Source: a virus. Taken from it: DNA of 34,347 nt. Every line of letters starts with the position of its first letter. Within the stretch, counting starts at the first letter, position 1. The stretch is from the IMG/VR virus record IMGVR_UViG_3300009168_000084, positions 1 through 34,347 of that record, one strand, 5' to 3'. The notes under the pieces were generated by a model that worked only from the letters and a program-made list of their open reading frames with translations, made no database searches and was not told the origin of the DNA. The position numbers were made by a program, and so were the translations under genes. Of the stretch, positions 1 to 34,347 are shown piece after piece.

Positions 1-3000
1 CTTACCTTTCTGAACATTGTACCACCAGGAAACTACATTCCCCCAATCATAATTCCTATGGTTAGGAAGATAGCCTGCATCAGACTCTTTAGTAAGGTCA
101 ATAACTTTCTTCTCTAACATAGTACGCACATTATAAGATATATCCCTTGCCTCAATTGCCAGATCTTTAAGATGGTCTGCTTCAAGAGGGGTAGTAAGCT
201 CTGTAAAACGCTCAGGATGTAACAAGGCTTCTATTGATATCTCATTAAGTCTATTCTCCTTACCTCTGACATCATCTGGATTTGTATAATATCTTATCTT
301 TCCTGTCTTATCATCAAGTTCATAGTTATTAAAATAAGAGGTAAGTTTATCAACGTCAAAGTCTGATCCTGCCTTTGCCACTATTTCCTTGGGTAATATA
401 ACCTTTAAACCATGATAATGTGGAAGAAACTTAACTATTTCCCCCACTTCAAGAGTACTAAGTTTCTGACTAGGTATTCGATTCATAGGAATAGTAAGTA
501 TTTTAAAGAAGTCCTTCCCAAGTAACTTAACATCCTTACGCAGGATTGCGTCATTTAAGACATCAAGACCTCCTATACTTTCTACATAATCTATCCAAGA
601 AATAGGCAAAGCTACCATTATCTGCATTGGTCTAACTCTTCCAGACTGCATTCTATAGAATTTCAGGTTAGCATTATAAATAGCAGATGATTCCTGAATA
701 AGCATATCTCCCGGAGTCTTACGACTAATTACCTCATTTCTAATTACAGACATTAATACTTCTTCTATCTTAAACTTACTTACTGTAGAATCAAATGTAT
801 TAGGATCATTCCTTGGAAGCAAGGCAAGTTCTATTCCTTCCAGGATATTATAAGGCATTAATCTGTGCTCAAACAGGTTTACAAGCCTATTCTGGAATGT
901 CTCAATTGTTTTACCCTTAGGAAGTCCCCAGGCTTCTCTCTCTTCATACCAGACAAGTCCAAATGAATCTATTATCTGCTGACGTTTTATTCTTACTATG
1001 TCATTAATAGTAGTCATGTATTCATCGTGTAGTTCTTTTAAATGTGGATCTTTTAGAACTTGTCCGTTATTAAATACATCATAGAATTCAATTCTCTGTC
1101 TCTGGGTAGATATTGTTACTTCCTTCTTACTCTCATCAGCTATATCAAGTTGGAGTCCAAAATCTGAATATCTTAATTCCTGACTTTCATAACCTTCTAC
1201 AGGAGTTTTTCCTCTGGCATTAAATAAGGATTGAGTCTGTTTAACAGATCCTTTCATAGTACTTCTGAATGCAAGTATACCCTGACCCTTATCTAACATT
1301 GATAACAAGGTAGATAAAAATGGATTGTCATTATCTATAGCCGAAGGAAATATAGGGGCAGTAGATGTTTTAAAGAACTGCATTGCATTTATTCCCTGTA
1401 TATCATTAATTATTCCAAATCCCTGAGGCTTCTGTATAGTAAGATTAGCTAATTCTTTTATAGTTAGTTCCTTCCCCTCAAACATAGGAATAACAGGAAT
1501 TTTTCCTTCAGTATGTTTGTAAAATATTCCAGTAGGACTAGTAAACATACTGGCATCTACTTTATCAAAGAAAGGAAGTTTAACCTTACTTTTCTTCAAC
1601 TCAAGGATACGGATAATGAATTTCTGCATCTCCCACTGATAGGTCTTTTCATAATTATTATTCCAGGAACCATGACGGAGCAGAATATCCCTATACTCAT
1701 CTAAGGTAGCATAAGACTGAGCATCAGTTGTATTTATATCTTCATAATTAAGATCTTTATTCTCTCCAATAATATCATCTACTACAATAAGGTCAAGGGC
1801 TTCAGTTCTGGTTCTTCTATCAACTCTCCTGTATAAAGCTTCAAGGTTACCTCTAAGATCAACTCCATCCGCAAGATTATATCTTGGAGAAGTTGAGCCT
1901 GTAACTCTCTTATGAAAATTCACAGGGTTGTCCCATAAAGCTATATCACCTAAGAACATCTTAAGTTGTTCCTGAGCTCCTACAAATTGAGTGTAATTAG
2001 CAAACAGGATCATTCTCTCAAGATCCTTAGGAGCTATCATTCCATCATAACCTAAGGTTAAATTAAACTTATTCTTATTAGTGACTACATCACTATCAAT
2101 TCCTCTCCAGAAATAACCAAGGATTTTATCACCTTTAACATTAAGACTTTCATTAATAAGGTTATCTTCCAGGAGAGACTGTTTAGTTAGAATAATTTGA
2201 TCATCTATAAACCTATCGAAGGATCGGTCTATATAGTCTGCATAGGTTGCTATAAATGTTTCTGTAAGTCCTACAGCATCAGCAACAGTATCTCCAGTCT
2301 TCTCCAGGGTTGCCTGAAAATCTTCTAATGGTTTAGGCACAGGATCTTCATAATTAAGTATCCTGTCATATAAGAAGTTAAATACTCTTAGCTCTCTTCC
2401 CAGAGTCTTATAGGAGTTTATATTTCCTCCCCAGTTATCAGGATCAATAATTAAAGCAAAGGAAGTAACCAACTCATCTCTCAGATAGTCAAACATATCC
2501 TGCTTAAACCTACTTCTGGTTATATTATAGTTAGGTTTTCCTAACTGGAATCCAAGTTCTACCTTTCTTTCAGCTGACCTGAGATAAGGACAAATACCAT
2601 TAAATAAGGCATTTATACTTATAGATTTATAATCTCCAAATGTTGCTTTAGATATCTCTGAACCATGTCTTGAGTTCTGAGATTGTACTCCCTTAAGTAT
2701 TACTATATTTATCTTCTGTCCTGAAAGTGAAGCTTCTGCATATTTTGAATGCATATTGAATAAGCTTCCATGAGTTCCATCCCAAGGCATAAGCTTTCTA
2801 ACTTCATCTGGTATATCACGACTACCATCAGGATTAATTTTTACCTTGTTTAAAGCATTAACAACATTCGTAACATGGGAATTTAGAATAATTGAGTATT
2901 CACGGTTTCCATCCTGATTAGTGAACGAGAGATCTTCATCATTTATAATAAATGATTTTGCATACTCTACCAGTTCCTTAACCTCAGCCTGATTCTCCAG

Positions 3001-6000
3001 GACATCAGAGTTGAAAAGATCTGCAAGATACAGTTCCTTACCTTTTCTGGCAATTATCTCCTGAGATAGATAAGTTATATAATTATCTATTATCTTATAA
3101 TTTTTTATATCTTCATATGTCCTGGATAAAGTTAAAGTTATACCCATACCCTTAAGGATATCAAGGTAAGCATTCTTTCTATCAACACTACCATCAGCTA
3201 ACTTCCAGGAAGCTTCAATAGCTTTTTGTACATTGGCTGTAACTATTATATATTTACCTCTCTTAGCTGATGCAGATCTTGCAATAAAATGTTCAGGAGG
3301 TATATTAGTTATCTGAGATTCTCCAAATCGGGCCTTGAAAGCTTTCTCATTATCTCTTATATCATTATTATCAGCCCCTCTGAACCACCATCCAGCAGGA
3401 GCATGAACTCTTATAGGAATACCAAGCTTTAACGCTGCTTTAGCTCCAGCCTCATCTACGCCTGTTTGTCCTCCTGTACGAACCTGTTCAATTTTAACCT
3501 TCAGGGCAGGAGATTCAACTATAGCTTTCAGTATATTATAAACTACTTCATCTATCTTCTCCTGAGATATACCATTTCTAACTAATGTATAAAGACCATT
3601 TCCCGCAATATTTATAGTTATATTTTTAAATAGATTATCACTTGCAAGAAAATTTAATCTTTCAGCTATTACTGCAGCTGTTTCAGCTGACATGGTGGGA
3701 TCATTTGGATCCAGTTGTAACCCAAGATATTTATTACGCTTGTCTTCCCATTCATAAGGAGCTTCCTTCGTCTTAGGATTAAGATTATTATTAGGGTCTC
3801 CTGCAAATTCAGCAGTTCTTATCTCTCCAAAAGTTGTAAAGTCTACTGCCAATGCGAGTGTAGCATCAGTCTCCTTTGCATTCTCTCTGGTTCTTACTAC
3901 ATATCCAGGACCTCTGGCAACAGTAAAATCAATTTTCTTCTCTGACACTTTAGGTATCACTGCAAGTTTACGAGCTGCATTCTGCCATCTATTCTTTATA
4001 ACAGTATCATTACGAAATTCAACAGGACTGAATGTATATTTCTTTCCATCATAAGAGTATTTGGTTATTACAGGAGTGCTTCGGGTATTGGAAAATGATC
4101 TTACGAACTGGGCTCTTAGTTTCATAATACCAGGAGGAACATTCTTCTGTTCGGACTTAAGCCTGGCAAGAAGAACATTTATAGGTTTTGTATAAGCTAC
4201 TTTCTTCTCAGACAATCTTCGTAATTCATCTGCATAGTCATTAAAGTCTCCCCCAAGACCTACCATAGTATTCTTTAGGAAGGTCATCATCTTATTAAAA
4301 TGAACAACGGTACGAACCTTATATTGAGATAAATCCCCTTCTACTCTATCATCTTTAGAAATACCAGGAAGTCCTGCTATAAGCATTCTTACAGGATCTT
4401 CTACAAGGTCAGATAGATTTATAGTGGAACTCTCTCTGAAAGCAAATGAACTTCTCCCAGCTTTCTCATCTTCTGGTATATCCAGCTCTTCGTATGTACC
4501 AAGCTTTTGTACATTCATACGATACTGTTGTAATAACCTTACATGCTCACTGACCAGATCTTTAAAATTATCCAGGATTTTCTGATAAGGAGTATTAGTA
4601 CCTTTACGTTCTACCTGTCTGGTATAATACTTTCTTAATGAATCATATACTAAATCTAAGTTGAAATCCAGGTTAGTAAGAACTGTATCAGTTAAATTTA
4701 ATTTTTCATAAAATAACACATTAAAAAAGGAATAATTTATCTCCTCAATAAAATCTCTGGTCTCCTGATTACTAAGGTTAGCTATACGATTCCTATCAAG
4801 ATCATTAGGAAGCTCGGTTGGATAGATATCAAATGAATTATTCCTAAGTAAATCAAAAGATCTTTCTATCTTAAAATCCTTATTAGAAGTTCTGGTTATA
4901 TGAAACAGTTCAAGGATTATATCAAGGATCTTCTGAAACAGATTCCTCTTAACAGGTTCCTCCTTGGCAAATGTATAACTGTTAGGACTCAACATATACA
5001 TTCTGAATTCTTCAGCAAGAATCTCTTCCGCCTTTTTATCAGTAGTATCAGGCTGATTTAACCTTCTGCGAACCTCATCATATAACTCAGTCCTTTCCTT
5101 AAATGTAAGAACTAATTGAGAGAATGCATGGAATCCCTCGTGGTAACCTGTACCAACTTCTGCTATAGAACTAAGTAAGATCGTAGCATGTCTGTTCAGT
5201 CTACCCCAGGCTTTATTGTCAATTAAACCATCAATTACTTCTACCGGGATGTTAGGAAACTTTTCTTTAAGCCAGGTCCTAATGGATGTTAAATCTTCTA
5301 ATTCATATGTACCTAGTCTCTTAGTAGCTAATCTTTCAAGAGGAGGTTCCTCAGGTTTCTTAATAGTAATAGGTTTACCAAGATTCTGATCTTCTTCATC
5401 TATAATATCATCATATATATCTCTTGGAACAGCAGTATCTGGTTTATTTGGAATAGTAGTAACATTAAAGCTATCACCAAGATCATTAATATCAGGCTCT
5501 CTTTGTTGAGGAGCTGATGGAGGAATTAAGACATCCTTACCTGTCTTACGCTTCTGGCGTTCAGCAAATGATATACCTTTCTTTGGTAGTTCCTCAATAG
5601 GTTTAGGAACTACTACAGGTTCTTTAGCTGTTGGTTGAGGCTTTTGTTCAGCCTTCTTCTTCCTATCTGCAAATGATACACTCTTTCCACCTTTTGGTAC
5701 ATCAGTAGTGGTAGCACTTTTATTAGTATTTATAACTGGAATAGGTTTAAGCCCGGCTGAGAAGTTTATAGACTGATTAAGATATCTGGCATTTTTAGTC
5801 TGCACACTTTCTAATCCTGAAGGAGGTTGCTTCTTAACATATACAGTTCCTTTAGGAATGCTATTATCCTTAGAGAATAAGAATCCAAGATATCCACCAT
5901 CTTTAGGAGTCCAGGTTCGCTCTGAGAGCTCACTCTTTTCATTAAGAACTATCTCTGTAAATTCAGTAGCATTTTTAAGATTATTTGAGAAGTTCCAGAA

Positions 6001-9800: not shown

Positions 9801-11372
9801 TTATTTAACTATAGTAGTCCCGCTTATCTTAGCCATCTGGTCAATTGCATCCAACATAGGCTGATTTTTGGTTCTTACATATTCCCCATATAATGTTTGT
9901 AATAATCCTTTGTCTAAGGATTGAAATTCATTAAATATATTAAATGCATCTCTAGAATTATCAGGATGTATTATAGTCCTTACTGGTACAGGCTGAGCTT
10001 TCTTGGCACCCCTAGACTCAGGAACACCTTTTATATCAACCTGGTATATAAATGGATTGTCTGGAAATCCGGAGGGGATTATTGATAATCCTTTAAATTC
10101 TATATTGGTCATTCCATCCAGGAGTTTGGAATTCTCTTTATCAATACCAACAACATCACCAGCTTCCATATTACGTTGTATGTACTCATTCACCCCCTTA
10201 AGATTAGCTGTTACTTCTGCATGACTGCTTCCTGTATTACCCCACATAGAGTTTATATCAATGACAGGTATTGCAGCATTTTTATATTGATCAGTATATT
10301 CCTGTAATAATAATTCTTTGGCTTCCTTACGAGCTCTACTGGCATCCTTTCCTTTTAAAGCACTTAACTCTTCAAAGGTATTAATATTAAAACCGGATTT
10401 ACGTCCAACCTCTTTAGCAATTCTATTACGAGGTTCTGTCATAAGAGCACTGGAATATATATCTCCTTTCTCCACACCAAGTTCTTTACTACCACCAATA
10501 ATTAACTTACCACTTGGAGCTCCTTCTAGTTGAGCATCCAGCATGGGTCCATAAGCCTGATTAGTCAGATATTGAGTCTGAGCTCTTCCTATGGCACTAT
10601 GGGCACCTTCAAAAACTGCTCCCATAACCTGCTCCCTTGGTAATGCAGCCAGGTTAGGATTCCTGTCAACTATATTCTGAACCATTAATTGTCCATCTTC
10701 AGTTGAAAGAAATTCTCTTAACTGTTCAGGATCTGCTATACCATGTTGTATTGTACTTAAGAAATATTGTCCACCAGCAGTAGATTGTAACTTAGGATTA
10801 TTTCTGATAGTTTCTGCAAGACTACTAAACTCAGTAGCTGCATCCTTAACTATATCTGCCCTGTTCACTGGAGTGAAATCAAAAGTAGCACCATTCTGCC
10901 AATCCTGAAATGATACATCAAATGGACTTCCAGCTGACATAAAATTTGATCCCAGCTTCATCTTAGCATCAAGGAAAGCTTTACCCATCTCCACCTTCTG
11001 CTTATTGAAATGATAGAATGGATTAGACCTTTCAGTACCGATCATTTTTGCAATTTCATTCGCAGCTGCACTATAATCACCATTATACTTATCCTTAACT
11101 AAGGAATTAACTCCAGATTCAAAAGATTTAATTCTATTAGTAAGTTCTGCTAAATCATAGGTTTCAGTCTCACCTATTCTGGCTATCTCAGAGGCTTCAG
11201 CCATTTTGGCAGTATCAAAACGTTCCTGTCTTTTGGCAACAGCTTCTACAAATCTTCCCATTCCTTCAGGGTCATACATAGACATAATACCTGAGTCACG
11301 TCCTTGTTGACTATAGGCAGCTTCCGGGTTAAACTGCTGACGATAATATCTTAAAGTAGGAGACAAACTCAT
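9801..11372 (-). CDS. Cargo (ejection) protein, crAss-like virion
   Basis: A 523-residue protein with no signal peptide or membrane segment. It is mainly helical and charged, beginning with a tyrosine-rich stretch (SPTLRYYRQQFNPEAAY) and a long predicted coiled region at about residues 40-140. I recognise no enzyme motif. Its place between the lysozyme-like tail protein and the giant polymerase gene matches the cargo genes of crAss-like phages, whose products are packed in the capsid or tail and leave with the DNA. That role is inferred from position and composition. The start codon overlaps the stop of the GIY-YIG gene by ATGA (11369-11372), so translation is probably coupled. Before the endonuclease arrived, this gene would have followed the 900-residue protein gene directly. 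Confidence 0.6.
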   Translation of the reverse strand: MSLSPTLRYYRQQFNPEAAYSQQGRDSGIMSMYDPEGMGRFVEAVAKRQERFDTAKMAEASEIARIGETETYDLAELTNRIKSFESGVNSLVKDKYNGDYSAAANEIAKMIGTERSNPFYHFNKQKVEMGKAFLDAKMKLGSNFMSAGSPFDVSFQDWQNGATFDFTPVNRADIVKDAATEFSSLAETIRNNPKLQSTAGGQYFLSTIQHGIADPEQLREFLSTEDGQLMVQNIVDRNPNLAALPREQVMGAVFEGAHSAIGRAQTQYLTNQAYGPMLDAQLEGAPSGKLIIGGSKELGVEKGDIYSSALMTEPRNRIAKEVGRKSGFNINTFEELSALKGKDASRARKEAKELLLQEYTDQYKNAAIPVIDINSMWGNTGSSHAEVTANLKGVNEYIQRNMEAGDVVGIDKENSKLLDGMTNIEFKGLSIIPSGFPDNPFIYQVDIKGVPESRGAKKAQPVPVRTIIHPDNSRDAFNIFNEFQSLDKGLLQTLYGEYVRTKNQPMLDAIDQMAKISGTTIVK

Positions 11373-12106
11373 GTTAATGGTAGTTTAGATTGTTTATATT
11401 TCCATATGAATCCTCCAGCAGTATTACTTCTTCCAGTAAGATTATTATTAATAGAACTCCTAGATATTTTAGTAATACATGAAGCTTCTGTAGCACTAGC
11501 AAAATCTCCTAAAAAATTATTGGATAAGTCATATTGACTAATAGTAATAGAACGATTAGCATCTTTTCCAAATCTGCCAGTACAACTTCTATTACCTAAT
11601 CCTCGTCTATTACCTATCATTTTAATAGATCTTTCTATATTATATTCCTCTTTAACCTTCCAATGTTTTCCAAGAGTAGGTTTGGAAGGTTTATTTTCTA
11701 ACATTTTTTGATAATATTCCTTGGGGATAGGATATCTATTTTTCCAAGCATCCCGCATCTTTTGTTTTGCCTCTTCCGATCTTTTTAATCCTGAGTTAGG
11801 TCTTTCTACTATTCTACAAATGTTAAAATAAGGATTATTGGTATTTATAAAATGTTGCTCATAAGTAATCAAATCTTCTCTAGAGCATTTATGTAATACT
11901 GAAAGTTTTAGATCCGTTTCACCATACTTATTAAAATGATTCTGTAAAATAATTGAATGGTGTTTATTTTGTTTTAGTAATTTTAGATGCTGGTACCATC
12001 TCTGTCCAATTCCTATAGCACTTCCAATATAACATCTATCAGGATGAATAATGGATTCTATTATATATATACCAGATTCGTTTCGTATACTATTTCCTCT
12101 AGCCAT
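11369..12106 (-). CDS. GIY-YIG homing endonuclease with NUMOD DNA-binding modules
   Basis: A 245-residue free-standing homing endonuclease. The catalytic domain is at the N-terminus: GIY at residues 12-14, YIG at 26-28, the conserved arginine at about R36, and the metal-binding glutamate probably E83 in TYEQHF, followed by N95. The C-terminal half carries DNA-binding modules: a NUMOD3-like segment beginning GLKRSEEAKQKMRDAWK (from residue 106), a second similar basic segment around 143-185, and a NUMOD1-like region (187-240) with the typical QYDLSNNFLGDF and final GGFIWKY. It starts 2 bases after the stop of the 900-residue gene and ends in an ATGA overlap with the cargo gene, so it was inserted without breaking either frame. 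It is not inside an intron or intein as far as I can see. Its target would be the cognate site in phages lacking it. Confidence 0.93.
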   Translation of the reverse strand: MARGNSIRNESGIYIIESIIHPDRCYIGSAIGIGQRWYQHLKLLKQNKHHSIILQNHFNKYGETDLKLSVLHKCSREDLITYEQHFINTNNPYFNICRIVERPNSGLKRSEEAKQKMRDAWKNRYPIPKEYYQKMLENKPSKPTLGKHWKVKEEYNIERSIKMIGNRRGLGNRSCTGRFGKDANRSITISQYDLSNNFLGDFASATEASCITKISRSSINNNLTGRSNTAGGFIWKYKQSKLPLT

Positions 12107-29538: not shown

Positions 29539-31392
29539 TTATACAACACTATATTTACATAATCTACTCATATATATACATAATTCATCATATTCATATA
29601 CTCCAATAGAAGGAACAGTATTCCATGTAACTCCAAAATAGTCTGTAGCTAATCCTACATTTATTCCAGCAAATTTACCTGGAGAACCTGATTTTAATGT
29701 AAAATCTGTATCTGCAGAATAATCCCCACTACCATTAGAAAATAAAGGATCTGTATTATTAAACCCATGTGTGTCATATCCTAATACATTCCACTGTGCC
29801 CATGTCTTACTTATTCCACCTGAATAATAAGGACTAGGTGCAGAGCTATTCCAATAAAGATTATAATCACACTCAAATGTACCTAATATTGATACTGGAG
29901 CTAATATATAAGTTTGATTTACTGATGTTAAAAATCCTATAATATTATTCTTTACCTTAATAGTACAACCTACAGGAATAGTCATAGTTGAAAATTTTAC
30001 AGGTTCTATATAACTTCCTGAATCTTCAAGTAGAATTACATTATTATAAATATATATATTACCACCAAGTGTTCCAGTTATCTGACTCCAGATACCTTTA
30101 TCTTCTGTAGTTATGATATTTCCATAGATATAAATATCTCCAATTATTGATGCAGGAGAATAAGAAATTGCCTCATGCCATCCCTCTATATAATTATTAC
30201 GAATAATAACATTTTTATTCCCATCTCCACTTAATATAATTCCTCCGGAACAATCAGAAATAGGGCCATTGTATATTTTATTATTTTCAATAATTACTCC
30301 ATCACATTCATTTACTTTTATACAGAAATCAGCAGTATGTTCTGTTAGTGGCCTAGACGTATAAAAAAATTGGTTATCTCTTACATAAATATTTGTTGCT
30401 GGATCATCCACCTCATACCCATTTAAATGCATCCAATAACATTGAGTTGTATACCAAAAATCTTGTGGTTGCTCACATATATTTCTTTCTATGTATAAAT
30501 TATCAAGTCTATTGAATTGTACCTGCCCCTGTTGTTCCTGGCACCCAAAAAATAACTGACAATTATAAAGATAGTTGTCTGTAAAATATATATGTGCACC
30601 ACCATGGGTATCTAATCCTGTCCATGTAGGAATATCTGAAATATAGTTATATCTAGCATAACAATAATCTGGAACTCCACAAGTGGTTGATGTTGTAAAA
30701 CTAATTCCATAAGCAAGAGCTTCAAATGTAGTACTATAACTTCTTAGATCATGGATATAATTATAATAAACATAAGCATCTGTCCTAAGTGTTACAGAAT
30801 CATTACCAATAACAAAAATACCTGCCCACCCACAATCATATATTTCATTACTATAAAGTAAAGGTGTTGCAGTTGTTGTTTTTGTTATATCTCCTATCAC
30901 AATATTATAAGCACCATACCCAAAATAAATTCCACAATAAGATATATTATGTACCTCACAATTAGTAATTAACCAATCATGACAATAATTAATACAATAA
31001 AAACCATAGTAACTAGTACCTCCATCATCTCCGTGATGATAATCAGAACTCTTTACTTCTATATTATCAAATGTAATATATGCTTTTGTAGATGCATATA
31101 TAACCATCTTAGTAGTTGTGCCTGTGATTTCTACCAATGGTTTATTTCCAGTACTATATGAAGTTGTAACAATATGATTTCCAGCAGTACCATCCTGACC
31201 AACAATTACAGCATGTGTTGCAGGAGAAGCAAATGACCAACTATCACCACATTTTAAACAGACTGTATCTCCAGCTGCAAGAACAGTTGAACCAGTCCAA
31301 CCTATCATCCATGGATGGTGCGCCCAAGCATTAGTATCATCTAAGCCTGATGCACTATCATTGCCTCCGTTTTTTACATAATAAGTTGCCAT
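29539..31392 (-). CDS. Right-handed beta-helix fibre/tailspike protein
   Basis: A 617-residue protein of the pectate lyase-like, parallel beta-helix class. It begins ATYYVKNGGNDSASGLDD, the usual opening of such proteins, then HHPWMIGWTGSTVLAAGDTV, followed by coil after coil with the NNxI/NxxY pattern (NYIHDL, NYISDI, DNYLYN, ENNKIYNG, RNNYIEG, KNNIIGF). The last part (about 510-605) has SPGKFAGINVGLATDYFG and GVYEY, a common end of carbohydrate-active helix proteins. It could bind or cut capsule or O-antigen. No clear catalytic triad is visible. Its first about 80 residues are homologous to the partial protein at the right edge. It lies 3 bases after the gene at 31396 and is the last gene of unit A. 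Confidence 0.85.
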   Translation of the reverse strand: MATYYVKNGGNDSASGLDDTNAWAHHPWMIGWTGSTVLAAGDTVCLKCGDSWSFASPATHAVIVGQDGTAGNHIVTTSYSTGNKPLVEITGTTTKMVIYASTKAYITFDNIEVKSSDYHHGDDGGTSYYGFYCINYCHDWLITNCEVHNISYCGIYFGYGAYNIVIGDITKTTTATPLLYSNEIYDCGWAGIFVIGNDSVTLRTDAYVYYNYIHDLRSYSTTFEALAYGISFTTSTTCGVPDYCYARYNYISDIPTWTGLDTHGGAHIYFTDNYLYNCQLFFGCQEQQGQVQFNRLDNLYIERNICEQPQDFWYTTQCYWMHLNGYEVDDPATNIYVRDNQFFYTSRPLTEHTADFCIKVNECDGVIIENNKIYNGPISDCSGGIILSGDGNKNVIIRNNYIEGWHEAISYSPASIIGDIYIYGNIITTEDKGIWSQITGTLGGNIYIYNNVILLEDSGSYIEPVKFSTMTIPVGCTIKVKNNIIGFLTSVNQTYILAPVSILGTFECDYNLYWNSSAPSPYYSGGISKTWAQWNVLGYDTHGFNNTDPLFSNGSGDYSADTDFTLKSGSPGKFAGINVGLATDYFGVTWNTVPSIGVYEYDELCIYMSRLCKYSVV

Positions 31393-31888: not shown

Positions 31889-34347
31889 TTAGTCCTTTAT
31901 AAGTCTAACCGATGCTCTATCTGTTTTCAAATGTGTAGTAGTAGTTAATGCCTCACTATCTTTTGTTAACAAAGTTGCCCAAGCTGTAGTTACACCTGTA
32001 CTAGTACCCCAAAATAAAAAGTCAGTCCTAAAATTTGATTCATTACTTCCTGATCCTCTTGCACCAAAACCACTTGAGTTATCAGCACCAAGATTAGGTG
32101 CATCCCAATAAGTTGTACCTATAGTTTTCATATGTCCTCCTACTATAGAGAAACCACCATAAAGTGTAATCAATATACTGAGATCTCCTGTAGTTGGAAG
32201 ATGCCATCCAGGATTTGCAGTTGCAATAGCATTAGCCTGATCCCATGTATATAATCCCCCATAATCATTTACATTATCTTCATCTCCAGAGGGGAATGTC
32301 CCTGTCTTCCAATCCCAGTTTCTAGCCATCCAGACCTGCGATCCTATTGTTACTGTAGGAAATGGATACCAAGCATGTATATGTGGTCTAACTATAACTA
32401 TACTTATTCCACCAGGTAAACCAGTTAGAGTTACAGTTCCTAATCCAAGTAGTATTAAAGAACCCCATGGAGCTAAAGTAATAGTTCCTGAATATGGAGT
32501 ATTTGCAACATCAACCATAGGTGCCGATAATATATAGTATTTATTGGCACCTGTTTCATTATAAATGAAATGTAATTCATTAGTTGTATCAGTAACTTGT
32601 ACAGGTGCTTTATTTGAATTAGAATCTTGACTGGAATACGTTTTCCATTCAGAAAGCGTGTAATTTATTGTTACTGGATTATCATATGTTCGTATAGTAT
32701 CGGCATCAACACCTGGATAATCATCAATCGGACGAGCATAATAATTATAATCTAAGGTTCCAACAGAAAGAAATCCACCTGTACCATCAGCATAATAAAA
32801 TGCTAATTGGGTTGATTCTTTTGAAAAAAATATATTATGATCAACATTAGTTGCTGTTATAGGTTGACCATAACCACCATACCAAAATCTTAATTGATTA
32901 TTATTATTATAACAAGTATTATGTTGAATATTATTATGTCCTGAGCAGGTAACATCTATACCAGCACTATAACAATTAGCACATATATTATAACTAATAT
33001 TACAATTAGTAACATCATTATCTATATAAATCCCATGTATTGAAAGAGTGTTAGGACCATCTATACTTACTCCACTTACCGTTTGATTACTATTTACACA
33101 TATGTTTTTATATATCGTTCTCGTAGCAGTAAGTCCACCATAAGTATATATTCCACCACTATCATATCTATTAGTTCCCCAGTTTGTTATGTAATTATAT
33201 CTTGCAATAATATTATTCCCATTAGTCATACGTATTCCTGAATGACCTATATTAGATAAAGTATTATATTCAATAATACTATTAGTACCTGATATAGTTA
33301 TACCATCATATATATAATCAACTTCATCTACCGTATCTGTAGAAAGATATGCTGAACCAATTATCAATCCAATATTCGATATGGTATTATTTTTAATCCA
33401 GACTGTATTGGTAGAACCTAAGAATTGAAATGCATTACAATTACTTGTATCAACAAGATTATTATCTACCGTCATTGATGCATTGGATGAATAATCATTA
33501 TCTATATATATAGCAGAGGTGCCAAGAAAATAAAAACTACAGTTTTGTATGATTATATTTTGACCATTCCTATTCTCTATAGCAGATGTATTTGATCCTT
33601 CAAAACATATATTATCGAATGTAAGATAGTTTTTACTACTTATATATAAGAATCTATTTCTTGTAGTAACCTTAACTGTATATGATGTCTCATCTACACC
33701 TACACCAAAATACATATAGAACCTACTTCCATTATAATACCATTCTCCTAACACTGGAGTTCCTGTAGAAAGTGTTTGAAGACTGTTCTGAAAAAAATAC
33801 CCATAATTATCTGTTGGCCCCCAACTTGACACTGCTGTAAATGTTATTGTATTAGTAGTATGGTTAGTAATAAGACTCCTATCTGTCATCCACTTACTTC
33901 TTCTCATTACCAATTCAGCACCAGTCCAATTTGGAGATCCTGTCAATGATGAATCTGTTATAGAAACATTATCAGAATGAGTTTCATATGTATTCCAGCC
34001 AGTATGCGGATATCTACCCATTCCAGTATTTATACCATTTACTGTAACAAGATTACAAACATTTCCATCACATGCTATATCTTTATATTTAACCGAAGTA
34101 CTATAAGTTGACCAACCAGTAATAGTAGTAAATCCTGATATCTTAGGTTGATCTCCAGTATCATAGGATGTAGTCATTATAACATTTCCTACAGTACCAG
34201 ATACAGTCGGAGTAATAGTATCATACCAGACACTTCCACATTTAAGACAAACAATATCTCCTGCTACCAATGTTTTTGGTGCAGCAGTCCACCCAGACAT
34301 CCAAGGATGATGAGCCCATGCAGTACCATCACTTGTTCCTGCAGATA
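31889..34347 (-). CDS. Beta-helix fibre with C-terminal Fib_succ_major-like domain (partial, N-terminus beyond window)
   Basis: The frame stays open from the stop at 31889-31891 to the right edge, 818 codons. The first ATG in the window (34300) is internal: the residues before it, SAGTSDGTAWAHHPW, match the paralogue at 29539-31392 (SASGLDDTNAWAHHPW), whose start lies about 28 residues upstream. The central part is a right-handed beta-helix with many NN-I coils (ENRNGQNIIIQNCSFY, DNNLVDTSN, KNNTISNIG). The last 165 or so residues are a Fib_succ_major-like domain: VTIGSQVWMARNWDW, then GGLYTWDQANAIA, GWHLPTTGDLSIL, SSGFGARGSG and the final ASVRLIKD. That domain is common in Bacteroidota surface proteins and is thought to have a C-type-lectin-like fold, so it is a likely receptor-binding tip. 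Confidence 0.85.
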   Translation of the reverse strand, partial: SAGTSDGTAWAHHPWMSGWTAAPKTLVAGDIVCLKCGSVWYDTITPTVSGTVGNVIMTTSYDTGDQPKISGFTTITGWSTYSTSVKYKDIACDGNVCNLVTVNGINTGMGRYPHTGWNTYETHSDNVSITDSSLTGSPNWTGAELVMRRSKWMTDRSLITNHTTNTITFTAVSSWGPTDNYGYFFQNSLQTLSTGTPVLGEWYYNGSRFYMYFGVGVDETSYTVKVTTRNRFLYISSKNYLTFDNICFEGSNTSAIENRNGQNIIIQNCSFYFLGTSAIYIDNDYSSNASMTVDNNLVDTSNCNAFQFLGSTNTVWIKNNTISNIGLIIGSAYLSTDTVDEVDYIYDGITISGTNSIIEYNTLSNIGHSGIRMTNGNNIIARYNYITNWGTNRYDSGGIYTYGGLTATRTIYKNICVNSNQTVSGVSIDGPNTLSIHGIYIDNDVTNCNISYNICANCYSAGIDVTCSGHNNIQHNTCYNNNNQLRFWYGGYGQPITATNVDHNIFFSKESTQLAFYYADGTGGFLSVGTLDYNYYARPIDDYPGVDADTIRTYDNPVTINYTLSEWKTYSSQDSNSNKAPVQVTDTTNELHFIYNETGANKYYILSAPMVDVANTPYSGTITLAPWGSLILLGLGTVTLTGLPGGISIVIVRPHIHAWYPFPTVTIGSQVWMARNWDWKTGTFPSGDEDNVNDYGGLYTWDQANAIATANPGWHLPTTGDLSILITLYGGFSIVGGHMKTIGTTYWDAPNLGADNSSGFGARGSGSNESNFRTDFLFWGTSTGVTTAWATLLTKDSEALTTTTHLKTDRASVRLIKD

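Follow-up and report, generated by a model that had tools for sequence, protein, structure and literature searches.

Phage SLOG domains have been described before, as have macro domains and multidomain proteins that are injected. Viral SLOG domains have been predicted to counter ADP-ribose-type signals (PMC9503650), and the same survey deals with polyvalent proteins that are injected and with ADP-ribose effectors packaged in virions; these resemble the protein described here in being multidomain, in their predicted entry into the host and in bearing ADP-ribose-type domains. That survey describes viral SLOG, macro and NADAR proteins as typically free-standing, whereas the protein that bears the domain in the window is the virion RNA polymerase. 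Two described groups lie closest to the domain: cpYpsA (PF12694; PDB 3IMK), and PHROG_10774, which includes ORF146 of Vibrio phage ICP1 and a 'putative molybdenum carrier' of Pseudomonas phage SYP. The carrier is a member of the Crassvirales virion RNA polymerases, a kind of protein injected into bacteria by crAss-like phages from the gut and the environment. They are described from phi14:2 (PDB 6VR4) and from crAss001, whose gp47, gp49 and gp50 were detected in virions by mass spectrometry (PMC10172136). SLOG is not mentioned in the text of a genome analysis (PMC7886860) or of the crAssBcn paper (PMC10354031), nor are crAss phages mentioned in the PMC9503650 survey. As far as can be seen in the text of the papers searched, most of them openly available, the permuted domain order, the occurrence as an optional insert in crAss-like virion polymerases and the slot shared with a macro domain are new.

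The polymerase protein and its SLOG-superfamily domain

The window, by which we mean the whole stretch of DNA analysed, is a linear virus record of 34,347 bases. An open frame on its minus strand runs from 9795 to 1 and encodes a giant crAss-like virion RNA polymerase protein, of which 3265 amino acids are visible, the C-terminus being cut by the window edge. A profile of the protein's core, built with the window included, matches only 6VR4 in the PDB (E 9.4e-31), and the polymerase context proposed in the earlier note is therefore correct. The DFDxDK catalytic region is homologous to that of the phi14:2 polymerase; the motif itself, DFDVDK, occupies residues 3145-3150 (346-363, minus strand), about 1000 residues C-terminal of the module discussed below. 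By analogy with its homologues, the window's own polymerase protein would be packaged in the virion. An HExxH motif, HEGFH, lies at residues 1552-1556 (5128-5142, minus strand), and a metallopeptidase-like motif of this type was seen 1347-1679 residues upstream of DFDxDK in 42 of 80 polymerase loci.

The minus-strand translation of window positions 3301-3540 reads YNILKAIVESPALKVKIEQVRTGGQTGVDEAGAKAALKLGIPIRVHAPAGWWFRGADN... and includes GGQTGVD, starting at residue 2108 as the earlier note had it (residues 2108-2114; 3454-3474, minus strand). That span contains only the C-terminal half of a domain of about 210 residues, with a conserved N-terminal half, at window positions of about 3586-3903, lying upstream and missed in the first reading. 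The domain core comprises residues 1953-2161 (3313-3939, minus strand), which were matched at E 4.9e-55 by a profile of 46 homologues from which the window had been left out. None of 200 shuffles of the region was matched by the same profile and, given this result and the profile E-values, the match of the GGQTGVD domain is not due to chance. Alignments were needed to see these relationships: no relatives emerged when viral contigs were scanned with the window domain as a single sequence, and phmmer searches of the PDB, with the domain and with the polymerase region alone, gave nothing useful.

Copies of the module have 25-47% identity to the window domain, and 18 columns are identical in all 47 of the diverse copies aligned. 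The conserved order along the domain is RTRENA...TLALAVDFTTFGEIRT, then INIAGNGLYT, then GGQTGVD...PAGWWFR. In the N-terminal half, the motif Y-xx-RTxxNA...T-A-A...GExxT (residues 1965-1994; 3814-3903, minus strand) contributes the invariant residues Y1965, R1968, T1969, N1972, T1979, G1990, E1991 and T1994. The NIAGNGLYT strand and loop (residues 2062-2070; 3586-3612, minus strand) contribute N2062, A2064, G2065 and N2066; the GGQTGVD loop, whose conservation in homologues had been in question, contributes G2108, Q2110, G2112 and D2114; and PAGWWFR in the C-terminal half (3379-3399, minus strand) contributes P2133 and R2139.

The assignment of the domain to the cpYpsA family was right as to a cpYpsA-related Rossmannoid domain of the SLOG superfamily, but wrong as to the boundaries and the order of the halves. 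The Pfam cpYpsA profile matches the whole window protein at residues 2106-2137 (E 9.5e-6) with 25.9 bits against a cut-off of 26.2, and gives clear matches of 29-59 bits, in two stretches, on homologues of the module. When the N- and C-terminal halves were searched separately, the N-terminal half matched cpYpsA profile positions 44-125, 50-125 and 46-128 (in L005, L003 and L007, respectively) and the C-terminal half matched positions 1-38 and 1-24 (in L005 and L003). In the PDB, 3IMK was the one sequence matched by the N-terminal profile (positions 54-136, E 2e-4) and the best match of the C-terminal half (positions 8-41, E 2.5e-6). The halves thus match cpYpsA and 3IMK in reversed order, profile positions 44-128 first and then 1-38, which indicates that the domain is circularly permuted with respect to cpYpsA, where the GGQTG half comes first. 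Both halves are nonetheless recognisable, the RTxxN, GxxLT, NxAG and GGQTGxD motifs are common to the two, and 3IMK has a serine in place of the invariant glutamate that follows the glycine of GExxT. The PHROG_10774 profile, on the other hand, matches at E 1e-18 on the whole window protein and 1.1e-21 on the domain piece, again in two stretches, the best of which spans profile positions 77-165 of 179. These proteins have the same domain in the same order along about 180 amino acids; they differ in being encoded by free-standing genes, whereas the window copy is embedded in the virion polymerase protein and has extra loop residues at about 1998-2020. Judged by these alignments, the module is related to cpYpsA but permuted in another way, and belongs with PHROG_10774 rather than being cpYpsA itself.

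The Rossmann fold that the earlier note expected around the motif is present in the AlphaFold2 model (pLDDT 86.4, pTM 0.84), which has alternating strands and helices and confidently predicts a Rossmannoid fold of the SLOG superfamily type. A chain-order structural search finds 3IMK with a probability of 0.99, a weak E-value of 0.022, a TM-score of 0.47 by target length and a partial overlap, as expected for a permutation. By E-value, Foldseek ranked an SRP GTPase and pyruvate carboxylase highest (TM-scores of about 0.3, rmsd 9-14), and we discarded these matches as artefacts of chain order. The best match of the model in a library of viral structures is the giant protein of phage cr10_1 (E 3.2e-20).

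A mobile insertion and an exchangeable slot

The closest relative found (L098) aligns to residues 863-1942 and 2174-3264 of the window protein with nine of its own residues between. Blastp alignments to this protein and to three others (L043, L100 and L099) end at 1942-1954 and restart at 2171-2211; the residues across the break are contiguous or nearly so in L098, L043 and L100, and less sharply so in L099, with a gap of 43 residues. We therefore regard residues of about 1943-2173 (about 230 residues; 3277-3969, minus strand) as an insertion. The KYIIV strand (residues 2181-2185), which the earlier note had counted in the signature, falls beyond the insertion, in backbone common to relatives that have no module there. 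One of the relatives that lacks the module at this point, L043, carries it elsewhere, at residues 3334-3517, after the polymerase core.

A survey of 80 loci, selected on the polymerase core only, led us to reject the idea that the module is a conserved part of the polymerase: 78 lack the module and two (L152 and L157) have it. The window, L003, L008, L022, L152 and L157 have the module N-terminal of the catalytic motif, and cr10_1 and some 25 further loci have it C-terminal of that motif, although some module loci are near-copies and these counts are not of independent events. Elsewhere the module forms part of different giant proteins or, in many other phages, makes up a separate gene of about 180 residues. 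Its position ranges from about 1800 residues before the catalytic motif to about 1500 after it, and the tree of the module pairs copies from different positions with SH-aLRT values of 97-99 (L002 with L003, L031 with L032, and L026 with L044). From these sequence comparisons, we conclude that a linker of the polymerase protein has received a mobile SLOG-superfamily domain that is complete in itself, and that this module is an optional, relocatable and replaceable cargo rather than a polymerase part.

Cultured phages offer a finer view of such replacement. The N-terminal 3 kb of the polymerase gene of PhiCrAssBcn2 has matches in thirty Kehishuvirus-type records, the identity over the shared part being about 97% or higher. 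A slot after about residue 60 of this polymerase protein, whose orthologue in crAss001 is gp50, is empty in crAss001, tikkala and Bcn24, so that gp50 is without the module, unlike the window protein. The same slot holds the SLOG module in PhiCrAssBcn1, 2, 3, 20 and 25, and a macro-type domain, A1S_2505_Nterm (NCBIfam), in cr112_1. The RNA polymerase of the crAssBcn isolates has been described as just slightly variable (PMC10354031). The PhiCrAssBcn set is a ready natural experiment, with one host, Bacteroides intestinalis, and a slot that is empty, SLOG-filled or helix-filled. The helix-filled form is seen in PhiCrAssBcn9 and PhiCrAssBcn4, where slot residues of about 61-180 form a helical insert of about 120 residues that has no match in Pfam or PHROG and is a candidate counter-defence domain.

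Partner domains and free-standing copies

The A1S_2505 family (NF049995/PHROG_2072) has no function assigned in databases. A model of the domain (pLDDT 96) has macro domains, many with ADP-ribose, as most of its top PDB matches, with TM-scores up to 0.64; a few of the high-ranking matches are to designed proteins. The DarG antitoxin profile gives a weak match to one copy (E 7.7e-6), with a score that falls far short of the profile's cut-off. The family thereby gains a predicted identity, from structural modelling, as a macro (ADP-ribose-binding) domain. It is widespread in phages, and many loci have it as a fused part of a crAss-like polymerase protein (for example, L022:10553-10993).

The SLOG module adjoins this macro domain in four giant proteins, at a distance of 0-24 nt in three (L022, L038 and L057) and with an overlap in the fourth (L046), and in L067 the two are encoded by neighbouring genes. 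A1S_2505 lies in the same frame in 4 of 34 module loci with a polymerase core and in none of the 80 polymerase-selected loci, a difference (Fisher p 0.007) that is only indicative, since the two sets were chosen differently. Other fusions join the module to an ADP-ribosylglycohydrolase (L262), to DUF4326 (L266) and to an NT5C nucleotidase (L063), the last of which is also compatible with general nucleotide catabolism. A NADAR match in a further fusion (L258) falls below the Pfam cut-off (21.3 versus 35.1 bits). In Bacteroidales genomes, five large proteins of 1024-1856 aa (L259-L263) have the module near the C-terminus, one of them (L262) also with a DUF488 domain; these are possibly polyvalent proteins of mobile elements.

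The free-standing copy of ICP1, ORF146, overlaps ORF145 by 4 nt. ORF145 (AXY82238.1) is AdfB, a proven anti-DarT factor that neutralises the ADP-ribosyltransferase DarT (PMC11481870), and the G62/D62 variants reported for it are present in the ICP1 genomes that we examined. This operon link is an association and does not in itself prove a shared function for ORF146. ORF146 (L280:6422-6961, minus strand) was seen in dozens of ICP1 records, annotated as hypothetical, and is a good genetic test case. We had expected many ADP-ribose genes near the free-standing copies generally, but few were there, NADAR occurring in just 2 of 112; the genes beside them are mostly nucleic-acid enzymes and include a DNA ligase and a YfbR-like nucleotidase. 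This nearly empty ADP-ribose neighbourhood is a weak point of an ADP-ribose reading. PADLOC models of antiphage defence gave no match to the module.

Predicted function and its alternatives

The earlier note had offered two roles, namely that the module binds or destroys a host alarm signal or that it binds nucleotides for transcription. The second is unlikely, because the module is missing from 78 of the 80 polymerase relatives and shifts its position between phages. The first is the reading that the context best favours, given the fusions with macro, NADAR, ADP-ribosylglycohydrolase and DUF4326 domains and the ICP1 adfB operon. Rather than belonging to the polymerase proper, the module probably serves as an exchangeable payload against host defence, and we lean, with reasonable though far from complete confidence, towards the prediction that it is an injected, interchangeable payload that binds or cleaves ADP-ribose or NAD-derived immune molecules. 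The polymerase protein would be packaged in the virion and enter the host either before the DNA or together with it. The module would then arrive ahead of any phage gene expression, and would refold in the host after co-injection. The conserved loops RTxxN, GExxT, NxAGN and GGQTGxD, with R2139, might then bind or hydrolyse a nucleotide that host immunity makes from ADP-ribose or NAD, with a soluble cyclic-ADP-ribose-like signal, ADP-ribose phosphate and ADP-ribosyl groups on nucleic acid as candidate targets. NAD- or ADP-ribose-dependent defence would be blunted at the earliest moment, and macro domains that replace or accompany the module would attack another bond or adduct within the same chemistry.

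The alternative that survives best, although we consider it improbable, is that the module is a nucleotide-salvage or LOG-like N-glycosidase enzyme, feeding phage nucleotide metabolism rather than countering immunity. LOG-type SLOG enzymes do cleave N-glycosidic bonds (PMC9503650), and the NT5C 5'-nucleotidase fusion and the DNA ligase and YfbR-like nucleotidase genes among the neighbours would suit such a role. Against this, the domains paired with the module (macro, ADP-ribosylglycohydrolase, NADAR and DUF4326) point to ADP-ribose chemistry and, we infer, the few copies injected would suit early signal control more than bulk metabolism. It appears quite improbable that the module is instead a regulatory domain that senses a nucleotide (the NTP pool, cyclic ADP-ribose or an alarmone) and switches the activity of the virion polymerase. 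The module is covalently part of the polymerase protein, and sensor roles have been proposed for SLOG domains fused to nucleic-acid enzymes (PMC9503650), but a switch of this kind is hard to reconcile with its rarity among polymerase-selected loci, with its range of positions on both sides of the catalytic motif, with its existence as a separate gene in many other phages and with a slot that may be empty or hold a macro domain. Finally, a neutral or structural insertion into a linker hot spot where any folded domain would be tolerated, without selected function, is most improbable, for although one Kehishuvirus slot does tolerate nothing, SLOG, macro or helical inserts, polar residues are invariant over the 47 divergent copies and the pairing with macro domains recurs in several giant proteins.

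A role against ADP-ribose or NAD-derived immune molecules can be extended to crAss-like phages as a whole. Here, the virion RNA polymerase polyprotein would be a delivery vehicle with exchangeable slots, and SLOG, macro and other small domains would be pre-loaded NAD/ADP-ribose counter-defences, delivered before the first phage transcript; we hold this wider proposal to be finely balanced between right and wrong. If true, the polymerase injected by the most abundant phages of the human gut would double as a modular payload carrier, and crAss-like phages would be protected before any of their genes is expressed. The module would also allow a direct test of what has been predicted for viral SLOG domains, namely that immune signals of the ADP-ribose type are their targets.

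Elsewhere in the window, a homing endonuclease gene at 11369-12106 (PHROG_314, E 8.5e-18) is situated two genes upstream of the polymerase gene, with virion genes around it. Two long proteins, encoded at 29539-31392 and 31889-34300, have repeated sequence resembling a right-handed beta-helix and are apparently tail or fibre proteins, the second with a C-terminal region that may be FISUMP-like.
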